A stretch of DNA of 64,000 nucleotides. It comes from Halorubrum vacuolatum. GTDB taxonomy: Archaea > Halobacteriota > Halobacteria > Halobacteriales > Haloferacaceae. The stretch's first letter is position 1. Every line of letters begins with the position of its first letter. Positions 32,884-46,010 of the stretch are shown one piece after another. The translations under genes were made by a program, and so were the position numbers. The DNA is taken from the NCBI RefSeq assembly GCF_900188065.1, contig NZ_FZNQ01000006.1, positions 62,001 through 126,000 on the forward strand. Direction: 5' to 3'. Below the pieces are notes generated by a model. The model saw only the letters and a program-made list of their open reading frames with translations. It was not told where the DNA came from and did no database searches.

Positions 32884-33894
32884 TCAGAGGTCGTCTAAGT
32901 AGTCTCGCCGTTGCTCCATTTTCTCTTCCTCTGTCCGCGAATCGTAGTGCACTGAGAGCACTTTTTCGCTCACGTTGGCGCGATCACCGACTGCCTTCAT
33001 CGGCCATCCGTTCTGCAGTGCGTGTGTGATGCCGCCTCTCCGCACTGCGTGAGGACTTACAGCTGATGGACATGCAGACGCTGAGTCATACGAGGTCGCA
33101 TCACATTCGTCCAGATCTCGTCCGTGCGGACATTCTCGTGAGACCTCACAGGGTCGAGTGTATCGATAACAGTCGCCGCGTAGCGTCGTCGTATGAGCTC
33201 GTCCTTCTGGAGTCGAAATCAACGGCTTCCGTCCGTGCTCATCCGTCACGGCTGGACGAGTATGTTCTAACCAGTCGTCCAGAAGCTCACACACCTCATC
33301 AGATAGGGCAACCAATCGTTCCCCTCGTTTTTGATTCTTCAGCGTCGTCTCTGACTCTGGCCGATGGACTACCTGTAACGATTGCTTGACGGAATCGTAA
33401 TCACCGCAATCAAGCCCATGAATTTCTCCGACACGCATCATGGTGTGCCACATCAGCGTAAGTGCGACGTGTGGTCGGGATGCGTACTCGTACTTGTTGA
33501 GATGAGAAAGGACCTGCTCGGCTCGATCAGTATCCAGCATATCATCGCGGACGTTGTCGTTCCCACTCAGTGTGGGTGACAACACTTTCGTGTGGAGATC
33601 GAGTTCGACGGCATCAATTGACTCCAACCATTTAACGAACACCCGTAGTGTGTCCATCTGCGTCTTTTCACTCGCTGGCGAGAGACCACCTTCCATGCGT
33701 CGCCACATTCTGAATTCATGTAATTGGCGACCGGACAGCTCGTTCAGATTCGTGATCTCGGCATCGTTACACCACCGGACGAAGTGTCCAAGCCGCGACC
33801 GATGCGAATAGATCGTCGCTTGCGAGACACTATTTTCTCGATCAGCGAGGTACAGTTCGAGCGCGTGTTCGGGGTCTATGGGTTCCAAACTCAT
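32884..33894 (-). CDS. Tyrosine recombinase/integrase (intact XerC/D-like)
   Basis: A 336-residue integrase with a core-binding domain (ELYLADRENSVSQATIYSHRSRL) and a catalytic domain bearing MMRVGEIHGL (Arg I), HRPESETTLKNQKRGERL, VSPHAVRRGGITHAL (HxxR) and the nucleophile in LSVHYDSRTEEE. A Cys/His patch (CEVSRECPHGRDLDEC) is present as in related haloarchaeal enzymes. All catalytic residues are retained, unlike the paralogue at 17010-18140. It likely integrates or excises part of this island. Two palindromes adjoin its start codon. Confidence 0.9.
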   Translation of the reverse strand: MSLEPIDPEHALELYLADRENSVSQATIYSHRSRLGHFVRWCNDAEITNLNELSGRQLHEFRMWRRMEGGLSPASEKTQMDTLRVFVKWLESIDAVELDLHTKVLSPTLSGNDNVRDDMLDTDRAEQVLSHLNKYEYASRPHVALTLMWHTMMRVGEIHGLDCGDYDSVKQSLQVVHRPESETTLKNQKRGERLVALSDEVCELLDDWLEHTRPAVTDEHGRKPLISTPEGRAHTTTLRGDCYRYTRPCEVSRECPHGRDLDECDATSYDSASACPSAVSPHAVRRGGITHALQNGWPMKAVGDRANVSEKVLSVHYDSRTEEEKMEQRRDYLDDL

Positions 33895-34270: not shown

Positions 34271-37200
34271 CTACTCGGAGACCCGTGTGCGTGCTGCGAT
34301 GAGTGCTGTGGCGAGCAGTGCGATGAGTGCGACGACCACACCGAATCCGGGTATTTGCTCTTCGACGGCCGGCTCCTCTTCGGGCGTGTCGGCTACGCTA
34401 TCGTCGCTGTCGTCGCTATCGTCCGCCGTGTCTTCCTCGGGATCGGTGTCGTCCGTTCCAATAGTCAGCGTGTCGGTGTACGTATCGTCAGCAGTCGTGA
34501 GACGGTACGTGTATTCTCCCTCGCTTAACGCGGAGATATCAACGTCGTTGAACTCAACCGTTACCTGTCCATCTGAGCCGAGCGTCAACTCCTCCTCGGC
34601 AACGGTTTCGCCATCGATCTCCAGTTCGATCGTCTGGCCGTCGGACGGTCCACCCGTATTCGTGATCGTCGCCGTGACATCGATCGGTGTACTCGCGTCC
34701 TCCTGACCGCTCACTTCGGGCGCGGAGATCTCGAACTGTTCATCGCCAGGGGTGGGAGCGCCGGCGCCGCCACCACCACCGCCGCTGGCACCAGCGTCGG
34801 CGCCGTCGTCGTCATCAGATTCTGTGTCCTCCTCTTCGGATTCATCTTCTTGTGCGTCCTCCTCTTCGGATTCATCTTCTTGTGCGTCCTCAACGGATAT
34901 TGTTTCCGTGGTGGTGACGTCGTTGCCGGCCTGATCGACGACCTGCAATTCGACGCTAAAGGTCTCATCAGGCTGCAGATCATCGACGTGCACCTCGGTC
35001 TCCTCGCCGGTAATCTGCACGTCCGTTCGATCGTCACTGAGATCAACGTCGACGCTCGTCTCCGAGACGTCGATCGCGGATATCACCGGGGAGTACTCGA
35101 AGGTGAGCGTCACGTCTTCATCATCGATATCGAGGTCGGTACCGGGATCAACGGTCGTGTCGTCGATCGATGGTGGCTGATCATCCATCCCACCGGGCGC
35201 GAGCTGGCTGAAGCCGTCCACCTCGACGACGAGTTCGTCATCGACGATCTCGGGTTCAATCACCTCGTAGTCTTCCTCACCCTCCGGTGAGTAGAAGAAG
35301 ACGAGGTCCTCATCATCGATGCCCTCGATATCGATGTCAGCGAGTGGAACGCTCACGGTCGCGTCCTCGAGTTCGTCTTCGTCGAGGCCAATGTCGGCGA
35401 CATCGATGAACTCGTCCGTGATCTGGTCGGGTTCAACGGATGTTCCGGCGGGCGCGCTGGACGTCTGTCCGACCGACGCACTTCGCTCCTCATTCCCGTC
35501 GGCGTCATCGCTCGCTGAGAGAGCGAACGAGCCGTCAGTCGAGTCGGGCTCGACGGTCGCCTCGTTGTTCTCATCGAGTGCATAGCTAGTGACTGATGTG
35601 GTCAGCTCGTAGGTATCAGCGTTGCCGATCTCATCTTCGGCCTCCACCTCGATCGTGAAGGTAGTGTCTTCATCATCGAGAGTTGTCCCGTCGAATTCGA
35701 TCTCGAACTCATCACCCTCATCGGTCGGTGTGGATGGCGATCGATCCTCGGTGGTTCCATCGGCTTCTGCTTCGATGTCGATCTCGTCGATCGTGACGTC
35801 CTCATCGGCCTCGATCGTGAGCGTGGCATCAACTTCACCGAGGTCAGTCACGCGCGGCTGGATATCCGGGGCGGTCGTATCGACCGTCACGGTGGCGTCT
35901 TCATCTTCGAGTTCTGCGACGTTCCCAGCTTCGTCCTGCGCGGAAATGATCGCATTGTACTCACCATCGCCGACGAGGTCATCGACATCGATCGTCGTTT
36001 CAACGTCACCTTCCGCGTCGGCGTCAGTGAATTCTTCCCCGATAGCGAAGAAAGTAAACCCGGAGGCCAGACCGAGATTGACGACCTCAACATCACTGTT
36101 GACACCCTCAACATCGGCACTGACAGTAACCTCATCGTTTGTCAGGTCCGTATCGAGTTGGAGATTCTCGATCGTCGGTGGGGAGTTGTCGACCTCGAAC
36201 GGCTCGGTTTCGACTTGTTCTTCCTGACCGTCTCCACCGAATGCGGTCACTCTGAGGCGGTACTCCCCGTCATCGACCGGTTCGTCGTCCTCATCGATGG
36301 CGGTGTAGAAGAGGTCGGTGACGTCATCCTCGGCGTCGAAGGTGGACGTACGAACGACTTCGTCGTCCTCGTTCAGCACCTCCGTTTCGAAGGACTCCGC
36401 GACATCACTGTTGAGTTCGACCGTGACATCAAGCGGCTGGTTCGTGCTGATGAGGTCTGGCCCGGAAGCGAGCTGCAGATCGATCTCGTCATCCGGCACG
36501 AAGTCGCTCTCGACCTCGAAATCACTTTGCAGATTGCGGACAGTGCCGAGCCGCTCATGGATACGTTCGCCCGCTACTTCCTCTTCGAACATCGATATAC
36601 TGGCACTGTACTCCCCGCTTTCAATCTCGGAGACATCAACGGTGAATTCGAACTCGTCGTCCCCGTCACTATGTTCAACTTCCTGCTCAAGGACGGGTAG
36701 CGGATCTTCACCAACCAACCGGAAGGTGACAAACCAGTCTTCATCAACTTCCTCATCTCGTGGCGCTGTGACTGTTATTTCGTCTTCCGTCCCATCTTGT
36801 TCGATATCGCCAACATAATTCACCCCAATAAGGCGCTCCTCACTCGTATCTACTCGGTCACCATCTTCAACAAGAGCAAGTTCAAATTCGTTGAACGTGT
36901 CACCACTGCCGGTGAAGACATCATCATCACCCTCGACTGTGATGTTTATATCCTCACCGTCTTCATCTGGTGTTATCATTCCGACTCGCGGATCGACACG
37001 GATCTCACCAAGACCGTCGTAAATACTCAGCCGAATCGCCTCAACGTCGAATGTTTTCTCATCCTCCTCGGGAATGATCTCAATGGTACGGTCAGTATCT
37101 GTATTCGTGACCTCGATCGTGCGGTCGGCATCACCACCGAATGAGAAGGTGTCTTCACCCTCGGGCGCTGCATGAAGAACTTCCGCGGTGGTAGACGTTC

Positions 37201-38878
37201 CATCCTCAGTTAGTGTCGTCGTCGATCCTGCCACACCTTCCGCGTGCGTGATGCCGACGTCGGGGTCAGATTCGGGCTCATCCTTCTCAACGTTGTTTGT
37301 GACGTCTAGGTCGGTAAACCCTTGCGCAAACGTACCGTCATCGACTGCGACGACGGCGCCATCATCGCCAAGGGAGAAGTATGCCAATGACTCCTCAATC
37401 ACGTCCGGATCATCTGCCTCAACCTCTTCGGTCAGTGGCACGATGATGTCGCCGTCAGCAACGCTGAGATCGCCATCAGCCACTGTTTCGGGGTCGTTGT
37501 TCAGGCCGTCGCCATCAAATATGAAGAATTCTCCCGCATCATTAGGGAAATTATCCATCAGTTCCACTTCCTCCTCGAAGACCACGACGATCTCGTCTGG
37601 GGCGTCGTCCCGAACAGTCGCGGACGCAACTTCCGGTCCGGGCTTAAAAACGGTGATCTGGTCGATCTCTTCCCCGGAGACGGGGTCGACATCAGCGTCG
37701 AACCCTTCAACGTCGACTTCCACAGCGAAGTCGGTCTCCGAGTCAACAACAGGTGCCTCAACGTTCTCAAACTCACTTCCTTCGACCGTCACCACAGCTG
37801 AGTCATCATCTGCGAGATTGCCGAGATCAGCCGACTTGACGATAGACGCTGATTCGCCATCCTCGTAGTTGACGAGCTCAACGGTAACGTCGGCTGTAGT
37901 TACGTCATCGAGGTTCTCCAACGCAACCTCAGCAACATAATCATCTGTATCATCCTCAGTCACAACATCCGGACTAATGCTCGACGCATCGGCGTCTACT
38001 GTCGGCTGGGTATCGGGTTCTTCAACGACCAGATCACCAGCCACGTCGTTATTACCGGCCATCACGAGCACGTCGTAGTCAGTAGCGTCGAAGTCGCCGG
38101 TGACGCTCCCGAAGGTAATCGTGTCACTGTCGCCAGCGTCGAGGGTGACGTCTTCGGTGGCTGCGGCACCGCCACCGTCAAGCCCGCCGGCAACCTCCAA
38201 CTCAACTTCGAACGTGCCCTGTTCGTCACCGACGTTCTCGATAGTAGCACTGATGTCTTCGTCGTTACCTTCGGTGATAGTTGCATCAGCGCCTTGGCCG
38301 GCGATGTCGAGTCCGCTCAACGCCGGTTCTGCCGGGTCACTGGGTTCACCATCATCATCCGTATCGACCTCAAGTTCTGCATCTTCGGACTCGGTTACGG
38401 TGATACTCTGACCGTCACCGTCGCCGAGCGTCTCGACTGTCTGTTCAACCGATGCTGTACCGGGCTCCTTCGTTTCGATAGTTACGGTTGCGATGGTGAC
38501 TTCATCGTCGGCGTCCGAGTCGATCGCCTCGTCTCCGTAGACGACATCAGCGGTCGCAGTTGCTCCATCATCAGAGACTGGGTCATCCGGCTCGAACAAT
38601 GGATCGCCGGCCGGTTCGAGGTCCACTATCTTCGCAACGTTTGTGTCGGTGATATCAACCGTTGTGGTATATGCACCGACATCATCCTCAACGCCCTCGA
38701 CGACGATATCGAAAGTTAGCTCCTCACCGACATTCGCTTCGGTCTCATCGGGTGAGAGCGTGGCCGTCACCGCTCCAGTGTCGGCAGCAAAACCCACACC
38801 GCCAAAGAGGACGGTGATCGCGAGAAGTGTAATAACGAATTTCCGGGGAGTCAGCGAGTCTACAAACCGATCACTCAT
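34271..38878 (-). CDS. Giant cohesin-bearing surface protein with PGF-CTERM anchor
   Basis: A 1,535-residue secreted protein. The N-terminus has a signal peptide (KFVITLLAITVLFGGVGFAAD) followed at about residues 30-175 by a cohesin-type domain (VTATLSPDETEANVGEELTF, VGAYTTTVDITDTNVAKIV). Many acidic CARDB/Ig-like beta domains follow. Near the end is a SDDDDGADAGASGGGG linker, an Ig-like domain and a terminal PGF-CTERM tripartite signal (PGFGVVVALIALLATALIAA then RTR). This signal is processed by archaeosortase ArtA to a lipid anchor at the cell surface. The ATG at 38878 overlaps the upstream dockerin gene's stop by 8 nt, so the two are translationally coupled. Likely a cell-surface scaffold. 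Confidence 0.85.
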   Translation of the reverse strand: MSDRFVDSLTPRKFVITLLAITVLFGGVGFAADTGAVTATLSPDETEANVGEELTFDIVVEGVEDDVGAYTTTVDITDTNVAKIVDLEPAGDPLFEPDDPVSDDGATATADVVYGDEAIDSDADDEVTIATVTIETKEPGTASVEQTVETLGDGDGQSITVTESEDAELEVDTDDDGEPSDPAEPALSGLDIAGQGADATITEGNDEDISATIENVGDEQGTFEVELEVAGGLDGGGAAATEDVTLDAGDSDTITFGSVTGDFDATDYDVLVMAGNNDVAGDLVVEEPDTQPTVDADASSISPDVVTEDDTDDYVAEVALENLDDVTTADVTVELVNYEDGESASIVKSADLGNLADDDSAVVTVEGSEFENVEAPVVDSETDFAVEVDVEGFDADVDPVSGEEIDQITVFKPGPEVASATVRDDAPDEIVVVFEEEVELMDNFPNDAGEFFIFDGDGLNNDPETVADGDLSVADGDIIVPLTEEVEADDPDVIEESLAYFSLGDDGAVVAVDDGTFAQGFTDLDVTNNVEKDEPESDPDVGITHAEGVAGSTTTLTEDGTSTTAEVLHAAPEGEDTFSFGGDADRTIEVTNTDTDRTIEIIPEEDEKTFDVEAIRLSIYDGLGEIRVDPRVGMITPDEDGEDINITVEGDDDVFTGSGDTFNEFELALVEDGDRVDTSEERLIGVNYVGDIEQDGTEDEITVTAPRDEEVDEDWFVTFRLVGEDPLPVLEQEVEHSDGDDEFEFTVDVSEIESGEYSASISMFEEEVAGERIHERLGTVRNLQSDFEVESDFVPDDEIDLQLASGPDLISTNQPLDVTVELNSDVAESFETEVLNEDDEVVRTSTFDAEDDVTDLFYTAIDEDDEPVDDGEYRLRVTAFGGDGQEEQVETEPFEVDNSPPTIENLQLDTDLTNDEVTVSADVEGVNSDVEVVNLGLASGFTFFAIGEEFTDADAEGDVETTIDVDDLVGDGEYNAIISAQDEAGNVAELEDEDATVTVDTTAPDIQPRVTDLGEVDATLTIEADEDVTIDEIDIEAEADGTTEDRSPSTPTDEGDEFEIEFDGTTLDDEDTTFTIEVEAEDEIGNADTYELTTSVTSYALDENNEATVEPDSTDGSFALSASDDADGNEERSASVGQTSSAPAGTSVEPDQITDEFIDVADIGLDEDELEDATVSVPLADIDIEGIDDEDLVFFYSPEGEEDYEVIEPEIVDDELVVEVDGFSQLAPGGMDDQPPSIDDTTVDPGTDLDIDDEDVTLTFEYSPVISAIDVSETSVDVDLSDDRTDVQITGEETEVHVDDLQPDETFSVELQVVDQAGNDVTTTETISVEDAQEDESEEEDAQEDESEEEDTESDDDDGADAGASGGGGGGAGAPTPGDEQFEISAPEVSGQEDASTPIDVTATITNTGGPSDGQTIELEIDGETVAEEELTLGSDGQVTVEFNDVDISALSEGEYTYRLTTADDTYTDTLTIGTDDTDPEEDTADDSDDSDDSVADTPEEEPAVEEQIPGFGVVVALIALLATALIAARTRVSE
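34825..34884. repeat. 30-bp tandem duplication
   Basis: Two identical 30-bp units at 34825 and 34855 encode an acidic decapeptide (AQEDESEEED) twice in the linker of the surface protein, consistent with slippage. Confidence 0.85.
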
Positions 38879-41800
38879 CGGAATCACCCCCAGTAACGCG
38901 GTCGTACAATGCCTCAACGTCTGCCTCAGTCACCTCGTCGGGGTCGTCATCTGCGAAGTTGAATGCCTCCGAATTTTGTTGTACCTCCTCGGAATCAAGA
39001 TTCTGCTGGAGTGCTTGAACATCTACGACATCTGCTGTGCCGTCTCCGTTGATATCCTCATACAGGCCGTCTCCGTTGAGGTCTTGAGGTGGATCATCTC
39101 CGACGATTGGTGAGAGAGAAGCACCGTCAAGAGACACATGTAGTTCATTTTTTTCTGGCTCAATTGATAATTTCTTTCTGACACGATCGAACCCGGACTT
39201 TTTAATAACAACCTCGTACGTTCCCTCATCTATCCGCTCAATTGAATACTCCCCATCTGTGTCCGTTGTCGCGGTGGCCTCAAGATCGCCTGTTTCAGAA
39301 TCAACTACATTGATTTCAGCCGCTTCGAGTGAATCATCATCAGGGCCCGTTACTCTTCCAGTAAGAGTGCCTGTGTCCGGATTGATCGTCCCGGACTGAG
39401 CTTCGGCCCAGTCGTTGTTATGACCAAGTGTTCCGAGAGATGTTCGTGAGTCTTCACTGGAGCCATCGACACCTGCACTTAACGCATACACTGTACCCGG
39501 ATCGTCCCAGTCCGCGATGTAGACCGTACCATCCGCCACGGTTGGGGATGAGAAGAAACCCCAAGGAGAAACAGGTTCGAATCTCCACTGTCTATCCCCG
39601 AAAAATGAAGCATCCGCGTCCAACGCATATACGCTTCCCTCTCCACCTCCGACGAAGACAGTACTACCGGCTACCGTCGGTGACGACCGAACTCGACCAC
39701 TCGTCTCGTAACCCCATTCTCTCTCGCCCGTCTTCGCGTCCAATGCGTATACATGCGGATGGTCCGCCGCAGGGAGATCATTGGTCCCAATGTAGACGGT
39801 TCCATCGATAACTGTAGGTGAAGACCTTCCCAAAGTCTCGGCTTCGAACGTCCACTCTTCCTCGCCCGTTTCTGCATCCAATGCGTATACGTTGTTATCG
39901 TCACTCCCAACATAGACGATTCCATCCTCCACCGTCGGTGACGACCTGACCGAGTCCCCAGTAGCAAGTTCCCACTTTTTATTTCCGTCGTCAGCATCCA
40001 GTGCGTATATGCTGTTGTCTTCACTCCCGATATAGACGGTTCCGTCCAATACCGTCGGAGATGAAATGACTGCACCGTCGGTTTCGAAGAACCATTCTTT
40101 CTGACCTGTGGCCGCATCCAGTGCGTACACATTGTCGTCACTTCTCCCAAAATAGACGGTCCCATTTGCGACCGTTGGCGAAGATTGAACTGTTGCACCT
40201 TCCTCAAAACTCCATATCTCACTCCCGTTGGACGCATCCAGTGCGTACACATTCCCCGCAGCACCGAAGGTGCTATCATCACTTCCAACATATACAATAC
40301 CATCTACTACTGCTGGTGATGACCTTACAGATGAACCGGCATTGAAACGCCACTGCTCTTCACCTGTTTCTGTGTCCAGTGCGTATATGTTGTTATCGTT
40401 GCTCCCGATATAGACGGTTCCATCCACCACCGTCGGTGACGAGAATATCCGAGAATTAGTTTGGAAGGTCCAGAGTTCTTCTCCCGGTAAGTTAGTCCGT
40501 GTTAGTTGAACATCTTCACTACGGGTCTCATCTGGTTGGATAGTTACTTCGGTGCTGAACGATTCGAACTCTACTTGATCGATAATGACTTCATACGTTG
40601 CCTCAGCAGGTAGATCGGTTTCGTACTTTCCTTCTTCACTTGTTTTCGTGGTTGATACTAATTCATCTGTTCTAGTGTCGCCGAATTTTAATTCAACGTC
40701 AGTAACAGGGTCATCACTATCGTCGGTGACAATTCCCGTGATCGTACCGATATCTGGCGGAAGCGAAGCATCACCTATATTTATTGTCGTGACCGCTTCA
40801 TCGGTTGTTTCGTCATTATCACTCTTAGTGACGACCGTTAAGTCTATTTGGTACGAACCAGCCGTGTCAAATGTATAGTTTATTGATTCGCGTTCGAACT
40901 CTTCCTCTTTAATTTCCCACTTATAGGTGTCTATTGAGCGATCGTCGCGTGGATGATACGAATCCGACCCGTCGAATTCGATCTCCTCCCCGGTTTTGAG
41001 ATCACCAATGACATCGATCCTCGCCCGGGGGGTTCCCAACCGTTCCTCAATGTCCTCAACAGTAAATGTCGAAGTGATTTCGTCATTTTCGCCGCTCCGG
41101 CTCACTTCGAGACTCACTTCGTATTCGCCGGGATCGTCAAACGTGACTGAAACCGACTCACCGCTGTAGTTCTGTCCATCAATCTCCCACTCGTAGCTAT
41201 CAGCATCACCCGTTGAAGTAAATTCGACCACATCGCCGGGTTCGGGTGCCGAAGGTCGACGATCGAACGACGCGATTACCGGCGGCACCTCCTCAATGAT
41301 AACCTCGGTTTCTGTCTCATCCACGAGACCGCGGTCGTCTTCAACGGTCAGCCGTGCTGTGACGACACCCGGTTCGAACGTTACGTCGTCGACGCTCTCA
41401 CCACTACGGGTCTCTTCGAACGACCCATCGTCATCTCTCTCGAACACCCACGAGAACGACTCGATGTCGCTCCCAGCGGTCGACTCGCTTGCGTCGAACG
41501 TGACCGAATCGTCCATCACCTCGGCCGGTGCGTCGATCTTCGCGATGGGGGGATACTCGATGTTTCCTGCTGAAACCTCGTACGCCGTGAACCCCTGTTG
41601 ATCCGTTTTGACTCCTTGCGCACCGTTATCTTCAGGAGCGCGTGCGAACTCATTTTGTCCCGCTTCACTTTCCGGATCTTCTGCAGTCAGAATGGGTTCC
41701 AGCGCTGAGCGATATCTGAACCAGACGTCTTCGAACGCATCATCAGCATCATCATCGTCGTCATCGATCGGCTCATCACCAGCATAGCTAAATTCGACGA

Positions 41801-43307
41801 CCAATCGCTTGGTCTCACCGGGTTCATACTGTCCATTGATATCAAGGAGGGTGTGTTCTGCCGTATCGGTGGTGCCATCGTCTTGAATTATCTCATCTTC
41901 TCCCGCTTTGTGTCGCGTAACACTGATCACGTCGTCACTTTCTGCTTCAATAAAATCGACCGCTAGCTTATCAGAATGTGAAATAGACAGATAACCCTCA
42001 TTGCTGGTGAGGCCTGCACTCGATCCGTTCGAAACCTCGAATTCGACGCGAGATTTTGTTTTTTCACCGGTTGCCACCTGCCGAAGTTCGGCGTCGATCA
42101 CACCGTGATGGCGCACGGTTGAGACGGATGCACTGGGAGGATCAACAAAACGCAATATATCTCTGAGATTTTGATCCTCGTCACGACTGTACTGCTGCAG
42201 CATCTCGAAGAAATCACGAACATCATCCTTGGTTTTGCCTACAGAGGGTGGAGTCCCATCACACACGCGGCCTAGATTGCTCGAATAGTACCGCTGTGCA
42301 CCTGACTCGCTCCAGAGGGACCCGCTGCCGGTAGACGTATCGAAGAGCCGTTCACGCTGCTTTTCAAGGGCTTCGATAACTCCAGTCCGATTCTTTTGTT
42401 CCCACGCGTCCTTTTCATCGCTGGCCAATTCTTGGAGGTCAACGAGTGCCTCGTCGGAGTTACCAGCGCATTCGATTGCTGCTTTATCAGCGTAGTCGAA
42501 GAAATCGTTTTTGAGGTCGAACGTTGATTTGACCGCCTGACTCATCGACGTCCCACTAAGCCCATTTCTCAGTCCATATGCAGCTCCCGCAACCTTGGGC
42601 CAATCCGAATCAATTACTTCGGCAGTCACACCCGCTACTTTGCTCGTAACCGAAGCAACTGCGAGATCCGACAGGATGCTGACTGTCTCCTTCGCGAACT
42701 GTTCTTCCCAAGCTTTCGCTTCAGTGACGCCAGCGTACGCTTCTGCATAATTTTCGAATAGAACCTCGCGCCTGCCAGCCATCTCCGCGAACAGGCTCCA
42801 GTCGAGTTCATCGATAACGTTGTATTGAAGCCGCGTGTTGTCGGTTACGTCCTGATCACTGTCGATGACTTCGATTGTCGGTTCATCACCTGTTGGTTGT
42901 AAAAAAAGCGTGACCGCATGTGTACTCGGTGCAGTAACGGGCTCTTCATTGTGAAGTGTAATCTCTGGCCCCCCGCCATTGACAGTAAATTCCCCGTCCG
43001 TGTCATCGCCCTCCACCTCCAGATCGCTCAATTCGATATCAACGTCCGCCTCCTCAATTTCGTCGCCAAATACTGAGAACCCTCCACTAATTTCGATGAT
43101 GATCGTCACCGGAATCGTCGTCTCGGTTTCTGGAGGTAGCGGTATTGAGGTATCCTCTGGTGTCACGATAACTTCTTGTGACGGTCCAACTAACTGCGGC
43201 GTTGTTTGAGGACTTAGATCGGTTTCGTCGGTACGTACAACCCCGCTTAGCGGCACTAATGATGAAGCTGTGAGGAAATGTCGACGCGAGAGATCGAATT
43301 CACGCAT
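38871..43307 (-). CDS. Tat-exported PQQ-propeller/PKD protein with C-terminal dockerin
   Basis: A 1,478-residue exported protein. The N-terminus is a twin-arginine signal (LSRRHFLTASSLVPLSG). A helical coiled region at about 150-380 is followed by beta domains. Three PKD-like domains (GDADSYEWEIDGQNYSGESV-type) lie at roughly 590-830, a CarboxypepD_reg-like domain (TGIVTDDSDDPVTDVELKF) next, then seven to eight PQQ/Kelch-like propeller blades, each GTVYIGSNDNNIYALD-type (about 950-1280). A second regulatory-like domain and a dockerin with calcium-loop motifs (DLNGDGLYEDINGDGTADVV) end the protein. No catalytic site is visible. It starts the operon; an SD (CACCTC complement) and TATA lie upstream. 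It probably docks onto the cohesin of the coupled downstream protein. Confidence 0.85.
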   Translation of the reverse strand: MREFDLSRRHFLTASSLVPLSGVVRTDETDLSPQTTPQLVGPSQEVIVTPEDTSIPLPPETETTIPVTIIIEISGGFSVFGDEIEEADVDIELSDLEVEGDDTDGEFTVNGGGPEITLHNEEPVTAPSTHAVTLFLQPTGDEPTIEVIDSDQDVTDNTRLQYNVIDELDWSLFAEMAGRREVLFENYAEAYAGVTEAKAWEEQFAKETVSILSDLAVASVTSKVAGVTAEVIDSDWPKVAGAAYGLRNGLSGTSMSQAVKSTFDLKNDFFDYADKAAIECAGNSDEALVDLQELASDEKDAWEQKNRTGVIEALEKQRERLFDTSTGSGSLWSESGAQRYYSSNLGRVCDGTPPSVGKTKDDVRDFFEMLQQYSRDEDQNLRDILRFVDPPSASVSTVRHHGVIDAELRQVATGEKTKSRVEFEVSNGSSAGLTSNEGYLSISHSDKLAVDFIEAESDDVISVTRHKAGEDEIIQDDGTTDTAEHTLLDINGQYEPGETKRLVVEFSYAGDEPIDDDDDDADDAFEDVWFRYRSALEPILTAEDPESEAGQNEFARAPEDNGAQGVKTDQQGFTAYEVSAGNIEYPPIAKIDAPAEVMDDSVTFDASESTAGSDIESFSWVFERDDDGSFEETRSGESVDDVTFEPGVVTARLTVEDDRGLVDETETEVIIEEVPPVIASFDRRPSAPEPGDVVEFTSTGDADSYEWEIDGQNYSGESVSVTFDDPGEYEVSLEVSRSGENDEITSTFTVEDIEERLGTPRARIDVIGDLKTGEEIEFDGSDSYHPRDDRSIDTYKWEIKEEEFERESINYTFDTAGSYQIDLTVVTKSDNDETTDEAVTTINIGDASLPPDIGTITGIVTDDSDDPVTDVELKFGDTRTDELVSTTKTSEEGKYETDLPAEATYEVIIDQVEFESFSTEVTIQPDETRSEDVQLTRTNLPGEELWTFQTNSRIFSSPTVVDGTVYIGSNDNNIYALDTETGEEQWRFNAGSSVRSSPAVVDGIVYVGSDDSTFGAAGNVYALDASNGSEIWSFEEGATVQSSPTVANGTVYFGRSDDNVYALDAATGQKEWFFETDGAVISSPTVLDGTVYIGSEDNSIYALDADDGNKKWELATGDSVRSSPTVEDGIVYVGSDDNNVYALDAETGEEEWTFEAETLGRSSPTVIDGTVYIGTNDLPAADHPHVYALDAKTGEREWGYETSGRVRSSPTVAGSTVFVGGGEGSVYALDADASFFGDRQWRFEPVSPWGFFSSPTVADGTVYIADWDDPGTVYALSAGVDGSSEDSRTSLGTLGHNNDWAEAQSGTINPDTGTLTGRVTGPDDDSLEAAEINVVDSETGDLEATATTDTDGEYSIERIDEGTYEVVIKKSGFDRVRKKLSIEPEKNELHVSLDGASLSPIVGDDPPQDLNGDGLYEDINGDGTADVVDVQALQQNLDSEEVQQNSEAFNFADDDPDEVTEADVEALYDRVTGGDSDE

Positions 43308-44567: not shown

Positions 44568-45056
44568 TTAATCGTTCGCATCATCCGAGTCTCCGGTCAG
44601 TTCGTCCAATCCGTATCTGATGAGTTCCTCACGCCACCGTTCTATCTCTCCCGGGAGTTCGATCTCTTCAGTGTGACATCGAAGATACTCGACGACTGTG
44701 TCTTCGTCTACAGCTGCCTCGTCCGTTCCGAACCGCTTGAGGATCGATCTGATCTCTTCGTCGTATACGAATCGGTATCCGTTGAGAAAGTAGAATACGG
44801 CGGTCGTGTTGAGTGCGGTTCGTTTGTTGGCGTCGGCAAACGGATGATTCGCTACAAGGAGCCGAAGGAGGTGAAATGCCTTTTCGTGTATCGTACGCGG
44901 CACCGTTCCGAAGTTCCCTTCCTCGATGTATTGGAGTGCGAACTCGATATCGCCACGATTCTGGATCCCAGCGTGCGTGTCGTCGTATTCGGAGACGATG
45001 TCCTCGTGAATAGTAAGCACGTCATCGACCGAAGGATACCAGAGTGAGTCGGCCAT
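44568..45056 (-). CDS. doc: Doc/Fic-family toxin
   Basis: A 162-residue protein with the Doc signature HPFADANKRTAL at about residues 72-83, a form of the Fic HxFx(D/E)xN(K/G)R loop used by Doc kinases or AMP-transferases. Flanking helices (EKAFHLLRLLVAN before, NTTAVFYFLNGYRF after) match the Fic core. Doc of phage P1 phosphorylates EF-Tu, but this protein's target is not known. ATG 45056 is preferred over a GTG at 45077. The toxin precedes its partner, the reverse of classical phd-doc. It lies between two integrase remnants. Confidence 0.8.
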   Translation of the reverse strand: MADSLWYPSVDDVLTIHEDIVSEYDDTHAGIQNRGDIEFALQYIEEGNFGTVPRTIHEKAFHLLRLLVANHPFADANKRTALNTTAVFYFLNGYRFVYDEEIRSILKRFGTDEAAVDEDTVVEYLRCHTEEIELPGEIERWREELIRYGLDELTGDSDDAND

Positions 45057-45299
45057 TCGTTCTGACGTTGAAGTCACCCGGCGTAATTCTTCCGCTCATT
45101 CGGTCACCGCAATAATATCCTCTCCTGTACGATATTCATATGAGACAAAGCATTCCCTGTTGAGGTGGCTCTCAAACAGGATACTGGCACGACTGAGAAC
45201 GAAATCACGACGAAATTGGTATTCAAGTCGGTACGAGAAATTCGCTATATCTGCCAATTTATCGGAGGGTAGTCAAATCATACGTGATTTTGATCCCGC

Positions 45300-45905
45300 C
45301 TAGATGTTGTCGAGGAAGTCCCGTCGCTGTTCCATCCTCTCGCGCTGATTACGGCGATCGTGGTGCTCGTCAAGGACACCGCGTGTGACGTTGGCACGAT
45401 CGCTGACGACATCGTTGGGAACGTCGTGGTTGAGGTGATGGGTGATGCCTCCTCGCCGAAGTGCATGCGGACTCACGCTCGAAGGACAATCAAATGGTGT
45501 TGTGTAGCTCATCCCTTCACAACTCTCCGGTTCTCGGTCGTGAGGACATTCACCCGCCACGATGCAAGGTCTGGTAACACGATAACAGTCTCCTCGGAGC
45601 GTGGTCCGATGAGCACGGCCGTTCGCCGTCGACAGCAGCGGCCGACGGCCGAACTCGTCTTCGACATCGGGACGCCGGTCAGCGATCCAGTCATCAAGCA
45701 GTCGGTAGACGGCCCCCTGAAAGGGCGACGAGCCGCTCTCCGTTCTCAGCATTCCTGATCGTCGTTCCCATCTCCGGGCGCCGGATGACGGCGATCGACT
45801 GCTCGTCGGGGTCGTAGTCGTCAACTTCGAGCGAGTGGACGGCACCGAGGTGCATCATCGTGTACCACATCAGCGACCGATTCATCAGGGACAATTCACA
45901 AATAG
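45300..45905 (-). pseudogene. Integrase remnant 2, frameshifted
   Basis: Two minus-strand frames together give the catalytic half of a haloarchaeal integrase. MWYTMMHLGAVHSLEVDDYD (Arg I position now His) comes from one frame. After a shift near 45700, RRPDVEDEFGRRPLLSTANG, SPHALRRGGITHHL and RANVTRGVLDEHHDRRN come from the other. The nucleophilic Tyr is replaced by His (EHHD compared with HYD in the intact enzyme at 32884). It is inactive. It abuts the first chromosomal gene and probably marks the island edge. Confidence 0.8.
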
Positions 45906-46010
45906 CCTCACCGTGTGGTACCGATATCGAACGATGGAATCGGAACCCAAGACAACAGGATCGCGATCGACTCCCGGTCCAGTAACGAGACGGAGCATGT
46001 CGATGGAGCG

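Follow-up and report, generated by a model that had tools for sequence, protein, structure and literature searches.

The neighbouring open reading frames (ORFs) 2375 and 2376 of Archaeoglobus fulgidus are an archaeal precedent of a dockerin-cohesin pair, and their binding has been reported (PMC9705933). Proteins of anaerobic methanotrophic archaea (ANME) carry up to five cohesins, and in a passage of the same study that cites Peer 2009, archaea with dockerin or cohesin domains are described as not known for large scaffoldins (PMC9012536). The polysaccharide hydrolysis mechanisms of cellulose- and mannan-degrading haloarchaea have been called almost unknown (PMC10267330). In the openly licensed literature on haloarchaeal polysaccharide use, dockerins were either ignored or read as substrate-binding, and we found no mention of cohesins in haloarchaea. 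Here we describe a two-gene operon in a stretch of 64,000 nucleotides of the Halorubrum vacuolatum genome (contig NZ_FZNQ01000006.1, positions 62,001 to 126,000; hereafter the window), in which gene 1 encodes a protein with a C-terminal dockerin and gene 2 an anchored cohesin protein. Relatives are given by our handles for loci (L) and genomes (G).

Compared with the described systems, the dockerin-cohesin pair of the window is a modest variant, bipartite and anchored. The A. fulgidus pair AF2375/AF2376 is likewise archaeal, is encoded by ORFs numbered as neighbours, has one dockerin and one cohesin and shares the cohesin fold (2xdh, VIA-align Z 13.6), whereas no match to the window pair was found at the sequence level. 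The window pair adds predicted export by the twin-arginine translocation (Tat) system, modules of the PKD and propeller types and, ahead of loop 1, a further calcium-type motif; it also bears a PGF-CTERM anchor. With bacterial cellulosomes (Clostridium thermocellum CipA and the anchoring scaffoldins) the window shares the cohesin fold (1ohz_A, VIA-align Z 13.4), the C-terminal dockerin and the surface-anchored cohesin protein, but its anchor is of the archaeosortase type, not S-layer homology (SLH) or sortase. The combination of a multi-cohesin scaffoldin with dockerin-bearing glycoside hydrolases (GH) that characterizes a cellulosome was found in the relatives L075 and L111-L113, while the window has a single cohesin and a single dockerin and lacks both GH domains and a carbohydrate-binding module (CBM). 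The ANME proteins resemble the present system as non-cellulosomal archaeal dockerins and multi-cohesin proteins; they were found by standard domain libraries, whereas the cohesin family of gene 2 is often missed by Pfam. Dockerins of the same family as that of gene 1 (L034/L076) are borne by enzymes of Natronoglomus mannanivorans, where the dockerin was read as substrate-binding and cohesins were unmentioned (PMC10963439), while we find cohesin proteins adjoining the enzymes.

We consider it highly probable that the products of the operon form a surface assembly of two parts, with the dockerin protein docked on the cohesin protein. The gene 2 product would be exported via Sec and tethered at the cell surface by archaeosortase A (ArtA) through its PGF-CTERM signal, displaying the N-terminal cohesin, and the gene 1 product would leave the cell folded, via Tat, and plug its C-terminal dockerin into that cohesin. 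The PKD/beta-propeller body of gene 1 would thus be held at the surface, most likely binding a polymer or another surface. An earlier note on this DNA had proposed a Tat-exported PKD/propeller protein docked on an anchored cohesin protein, and this proposal is supported by the cohesin fold, the conservation and co-occurrence of the pair, the sole copies in the genome, the presence of ArtA and the exchange of modules between the partners. We infer that the gene 1 dockerin and the gene 2 cohesin bind each other as cognate partners, and in a calcium-dependent manner. Adhesion or capture is plausible as the function of the pair and is the most natural guess.

The cohesin and the dockerin

Neither the Pfam Cohesin family (PF00963) nor single-sequence searches of Pfam, NCBIfam and the PDB identified the cohesin of gene 2, and a cohesin profile searched against the PDB sequences gave insignificant matches only, with the best cohesin at 0.55. 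As sequence and profile searches had failed, a comparison of folds was needed. The AlphaFold2 model of the domain, based on an alignment of 68 sequences, had a predicted local distance difference test (pLDDT) score of 95.5 and a predicted template modelling (pTM) score of 0.89. When this model was searched with Foldseek, each of the best 50 matches bore the annotation of a cohesin, a cohesin-like module or a chain from a cohesin-dockerin complex, among them the A. fulgidus cohesin 2xdh. VIA-align gave Z values of up to 14.5, with non-cohesins confined to a few of the last matches listed, and the model and its structural matches show the nine-stranded beta-sandwich of cohesins. By its predicted fold, the region of amino acids 35-176 of gene 2 is a cohesin. 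The earlier note had placed a signal peptide and a cohesin-like domain at the start of gene 2, and both are borne out, the signal as read from the sequence and the cohesin by fold; the kinship with cohesins, insignificant in the profile search, emerged from the structural comparison. Pfam Cohesin detects three of 27 relatives of this domain (best E-value 1.5e-4), and in the closest relative pair, L122, the cohesin scores 24.0 bits (E = 4.9e-5) against a cut-off of 24.1.

The dockerin occupies the last 70-80 amino acids of gene 1, and 90 of 96 family members likewise carry it C-terminally. Pfam Dockerin_1 (PF00404) scored the gene 1 tail at 18.1 bits, under the cut-off of 22.9, and was matched at E ≤ 0.1 by 29 of the 30 members of our first family alignment (best 3.4e-11). 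A profile of the family recovered EF-hand proteins that include solved dockerins, for example CelS (E = 1.6e-5). For the comparison of the calcium loops, 61 dockerins were aligned; the Asp-rich motif preceding loop 1 fits 60 of them, loop 1 fits 55 and loop 2 fits 50. The earlier note had seen two calcium-loop repeats in the gene 1 dockerin, which is half right: the calcium-loop residues are present in loop 1, DINGDGTADVVD, which is canonical, whereas loop 2, NFADDDPDEVTEAD, is a variant of 14 residues that lacks the GDG core and keeps the last Asp. Eleven of the 61 members, the gene 1 dockerin and ten others, have a second loop of other than 12 residues. Since the ten others include intact pairs such as L033, the alignment indicates that the long loop 2 is a trait of a subgroup and not a sign of decay. 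Judged by these sequences, the gene 1 dockerin belongs to a divergent subgroup of type I dockerins and is not canonical.

Conservation and co-occurrence of the pair

Dockerin loci were collected by pattern and tblastn searches that were blind to cohesins. The scan yielded 78 loci, of which 16 that were bacterial by title were set aside. The archaeal loci contained 95 distinct dockerin ORFs, and for 64 of these a cohesin was encoded in the same or a neighbouring gene: in the same ORF in 43 cases, directly downstream on the same strand in 37 and upstream in nine, these categories overlapping. The arrangement with the cohesin downstream spans 14 lineages. Found again in no fewer than 14 lineages, the gene pair is not a product of chance. 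Start/stop overlaps of 1, 4 or 8 nt are recurrent among the pairs (4 nt in L122).

In a sample of 391 Halobacteria genomes, the dockerin was found in 171 and the cohesin in 187; both were present in 156 genomes, the dockerin only in 15, the cohesin only in 31 and neither in 189 (odds ratio 63, p = 6e-58, the p-value not to be taken literally). The earlier note's mention of scattered archaeal examples was thus an understatement. As a control, the association of the dockerin with Pfam-detectable cohesins was weak (odds ratio 1.85 versus 63), which led us to reject a general link of the dockerin to cohesins of any kind; the link is therefore specific to the cohesin family of gene 2. The H. vacuolatum genome holds a single dockerin and a single cohesin of these families, both in the window pair, and no Pfam-type cohesins were found in it. 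Other dockerins of the genome, which the note had suggested looking for, were sought with the dockerin profile, and none of this family besides gene 1 was found (E = 3.6e-26 for gene 1, the window sequence itself being included in the profile).

The two partners also exchange modules. The propeller and its neighbouring modules sit on the anchored cohesin protein in L122 and L033 (Natrarchaeobius chitinivorans), and in L033 one protein aligns to parts of both window proteins; such swapping is expected if both products act as one unit. In the Halobellus captivus pair (L064), the cohesin gene lies downstream of the dockerin stop codon in the same reading frame, and the two domains were folded as a read-through chain from an alignment of pairs plus single domains. 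The model had a pLDDT of 89 and a pTM of 0.81, with low confidence in the linker only. By a rough estimate, a dockerin placed to within an expected error of 2-3 Å should give a pTM of about 0.8 and an unplaced one about 0.55-0.6, and the modelled value is consistent with a defined docking contact.

Organisation and surroundings of the operon

Both ORFs are long and intact, and the 8-nt overlap between them that had been noted before is present as ATGAGTGA (Table 1). Gene 1 opens with a twin-arginine motif and an unassigned N-terminal region, which are followed by the PKD domains, one CarboxypepD_reg domain, the PQQ_2/BamB-type propeller, another CarboxypepD_reg domain and finally the dockerin, and its PKD, CarboxypepD_reg and PQQ_2/BamB-type repeats all exceed the Pfam cut-offs. 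Its N-terminus carries the motif SRRHFL, recognized by eye, which marks the product as a putative Tat-type secreted protein. Gene 2 runs from the signal peptide and the cohesin through immunoglobulin (Ig)/fn3-like stretches to a PGF-CTERM tail, which the earlier note had recognized correctly (TIGR04126, 39.1 bits versus a cut-off of 24.5). ArtA is encoded in the same genome (TIGR04125, E = 4.7e-100). Dehydrogenase models scored gene 1 far under their cut-offs (TIGR03075, 114 bits versus 480), and we therefore do not read it as a PQQ-dependent dehydrogenase.

Table 1. Positions of the operon's features in the window (aa, amino acids)
Feature	Coordinates	Strand	Remarks
Gene 1	38871..43307	(-)	1478 aa; Tat-type secreted (predicted) PKD/CarboxypepD_reg/PQQ-type beta-propeller protein with C-terminal dockerin
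Twin-arginine signal region	43224..43307	(-)	MREFDLSRRHFLTASSLVPLSG; motif read by eye from the sequence
PKD domains, about aa 586-855 of gene 1	40743..41552	(-)	Pfam PKD_4, E = 6e-25
PQQ_2/BamB-type beta-propeller repeats, about aa 940-1300 of gene 1	39408..40490	(-)	Pfam PQQ_2, E = 3.5e-55; ACSF4-type propeller, E = 9e-59
CarboxypepD_reg domain preceding the dockerin	39147..39368	(-)	Pfam PF13620, E = 1.7e-25
Dockerin region, aa 1399-1478 of gene 1	38874..39113	(-)	Family alignments
Extra motif DLNGDGLYED before loop 1	39054..39083	(-)	In 60 of 61 aligned dockerins
Calcium loop 1, DINGDGTADVVD	39021..39056	(-)	Canonical
Loop 2, NFADDDPDEVTEAD	38919..38960	(-)	14 residues, non-canonical
Gene 1/gene 2 overlap (stop/start)	38871..38878	(-)	8 nt, ATGAGTGA
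Gene 2	34271..38878, from ATG	(-)	1535 aa; anchored cohesin protein
Sec-type signal peptide of gene 2	38777..38878	(-)	Read from the sequence
Cohesin domain, aa 35-176 of gene 2	38351..38776	(-)	AlphaFold2 fold; Foldseek and VIA matches to cohesins
fn3-like domain of gene 2	34895..35116	(-)	PF00041, E = 3.4e-5, slightly under the cut-off
PGF-CTERM sorting signal of gene 2	34289..34360	(-)	IPGFG, hydrophobic helix and basic tail; TIGR04126; Pfam PF18204 over the cut-off

On either side of the operon lie a phage-type integrase (32884-33894) and an integrase-like fragment (45300-45845), and at 46 kb the guanine-cytosine (GC) fraction jumps from about 0.40-0.58 on the left to about 0.62-0.68 on the right. 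Because of the flanking integrases and the GC jump near position 46000, the operon probably lies at the edge of an integrated element. The closest relatives of the dockerin come from other haloarchaeal families rather than from the genus of its host, which suggests that the operon was gained horizontally. Upstream, at 44568-45077 (-), a protein of the Fic/DOC family is encoded (PF02661, E = 4.5e-9), which is unrelated to the dockerin despite its name.

Alternative explanations

Several points weigh against a docked pair. The second loop of the gene 1 dockerin is non-canonical, 30 of the 96 dockerin ORFs sampled have no cohesin nearby, kinship among the genomes inflates the p-value of the co-occurrence, and the pTM argument draws on the pair of a relative, lacks a non-cognate control and depends on an estimated expectation. 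One could read the dockerin as a substrate-binding (carbohydrate) module and the neighbouring domain as an unrelated Ig-type surface domain. Haloarchaeal type I dockerins have been read as substrate-binding before (PMC10963439 and PMC13260240), and Pfam does not call the gene 2 cohesin. However, the neighbour has the predicted fold of a cohesin with cohesins as its best matches, its counterpart in L122 approaches the Pfam cut-off, and the two families co-occur strongly (odds ratio 63), which makes this reading very unlikely.

The gene 1 dockerin might instead bind a cohesin of another protein or cell, its adjacency to gene 2 reflecting co-regulation only. Cascade operons hold several cohesins and dockerins, so that pairing need not track gene order, and a subset of dockerin genes lies without a nearby cohesin. 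In H. vacuolatum, however, the single dockerin faces a single cohesin of this family, and Pfam-type cohesins are absent from the genome as well; we regard another partner as unlikely. The integrases, the low GC left of 46 kb and the aberrant loop 2 could also mark a decaying remnant that has lost docking, but both long ORFs are intact and the long loop is common to ten other members, intact pairs included, so decay is the most improbable of these explanations. A dockerin protein docked on the ArtA-anchored cohesin protein remains the reading that we prefer.

A wider haloarchaeal system

The relatives of the pair probably belong to a distinct and widespread haloarchaeal cohesin-dockerin platform that is invisible to the Pfam Cohesin family in about half of the carrier genomes. 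It would range from simple anchored pairs (the window; the PhoX-dockerin of Haloarcula) to cellulosome-like machines with Tat-exported GH5-, GH10- and polysaccharide lyase 14 (PL14)-dockerin enzymes, an eight-cohesin GH5 scaffoldin and an ArtA-anchored cohesin, and its recognition residues seem to be uniform within genomes and to differ between them. In Haloarcula amylolytica (L056), the gene after that of a PhoX phosphatase-cohesin-dockerin protein encodes a cohesin protein whose C-terminus holds a hydrophobic segment. The loci L057, L058 and L074 resemble L056 in ORF size, Tat motif and arrangement, the PhoX scan having covered L056 alone. L055 and L096 present a cascade: an X-dockerin gene, two genes with two cohesins and a dockerin each, and a three-cohesin gene. 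In Natrinema ejinorense (L075; 1692-15029), six GH5 proteins carry a dockerin, and one protein combines two cohesins with fn3, PKD and a weak match to CBM5/12. The genome G345, which we take to be Natronoglomus mannanivorans (L111-L113, G345:C23:284001-330000), encodes an eight-cohesin GH5 protein and a 278-amino-acid protein that has a single cohesin and ends in a PGF-type tail, as well as many enzymes of the GH5, GH10 and PL14 types that bear dockerins. By eye, the C-termini of the dockerins look alike within a genome and different between genomes (VSVTDVVELF in G345, VGFNDVVALF in G104, IGFADVLDLL in G322), as for genome-specific recognition.

Further occurrences were noted in passing. In G002, a small haloarchaeal genome of 2.7 Mb, the dockerin gave 71 matches and the cohesin 19. 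At G043:C1:470364-487342 and G208:C1:81770-110285, large ORFs hold clusters of 11-12 cohesins of the Pfam type; each of these genomes has only one or two dockerins of the gene 1 family, and the partners of their Pfam-type cohesins may be a different dockerin family. Similar dockerins also occur in Bipolaricaulota and related bacteria (L047, L060, L073, L081, L086, L095, L103), and no cohesin of the gene 2 family was found in those neighbourhoods.

Haloarchaeal cohesins as such are already visible in databases, since Pfam-type cohesins occur in 153 of the 391 Halobacteria genomes. What appears to be new here is the dockerin-linked cohesin family and its organisation, through which the haloarchaeal dockerins gain a partner. 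The value of the window pair is that it exposes this wider system. If the pairing is true, haloarchaea would assemble complexes of surface proteins and enzymes in saturated salt by way of Tat export and archaeosortase anchoring, and their dockerins and cohesins would offer salt-stable modules for the coupling of proteins.

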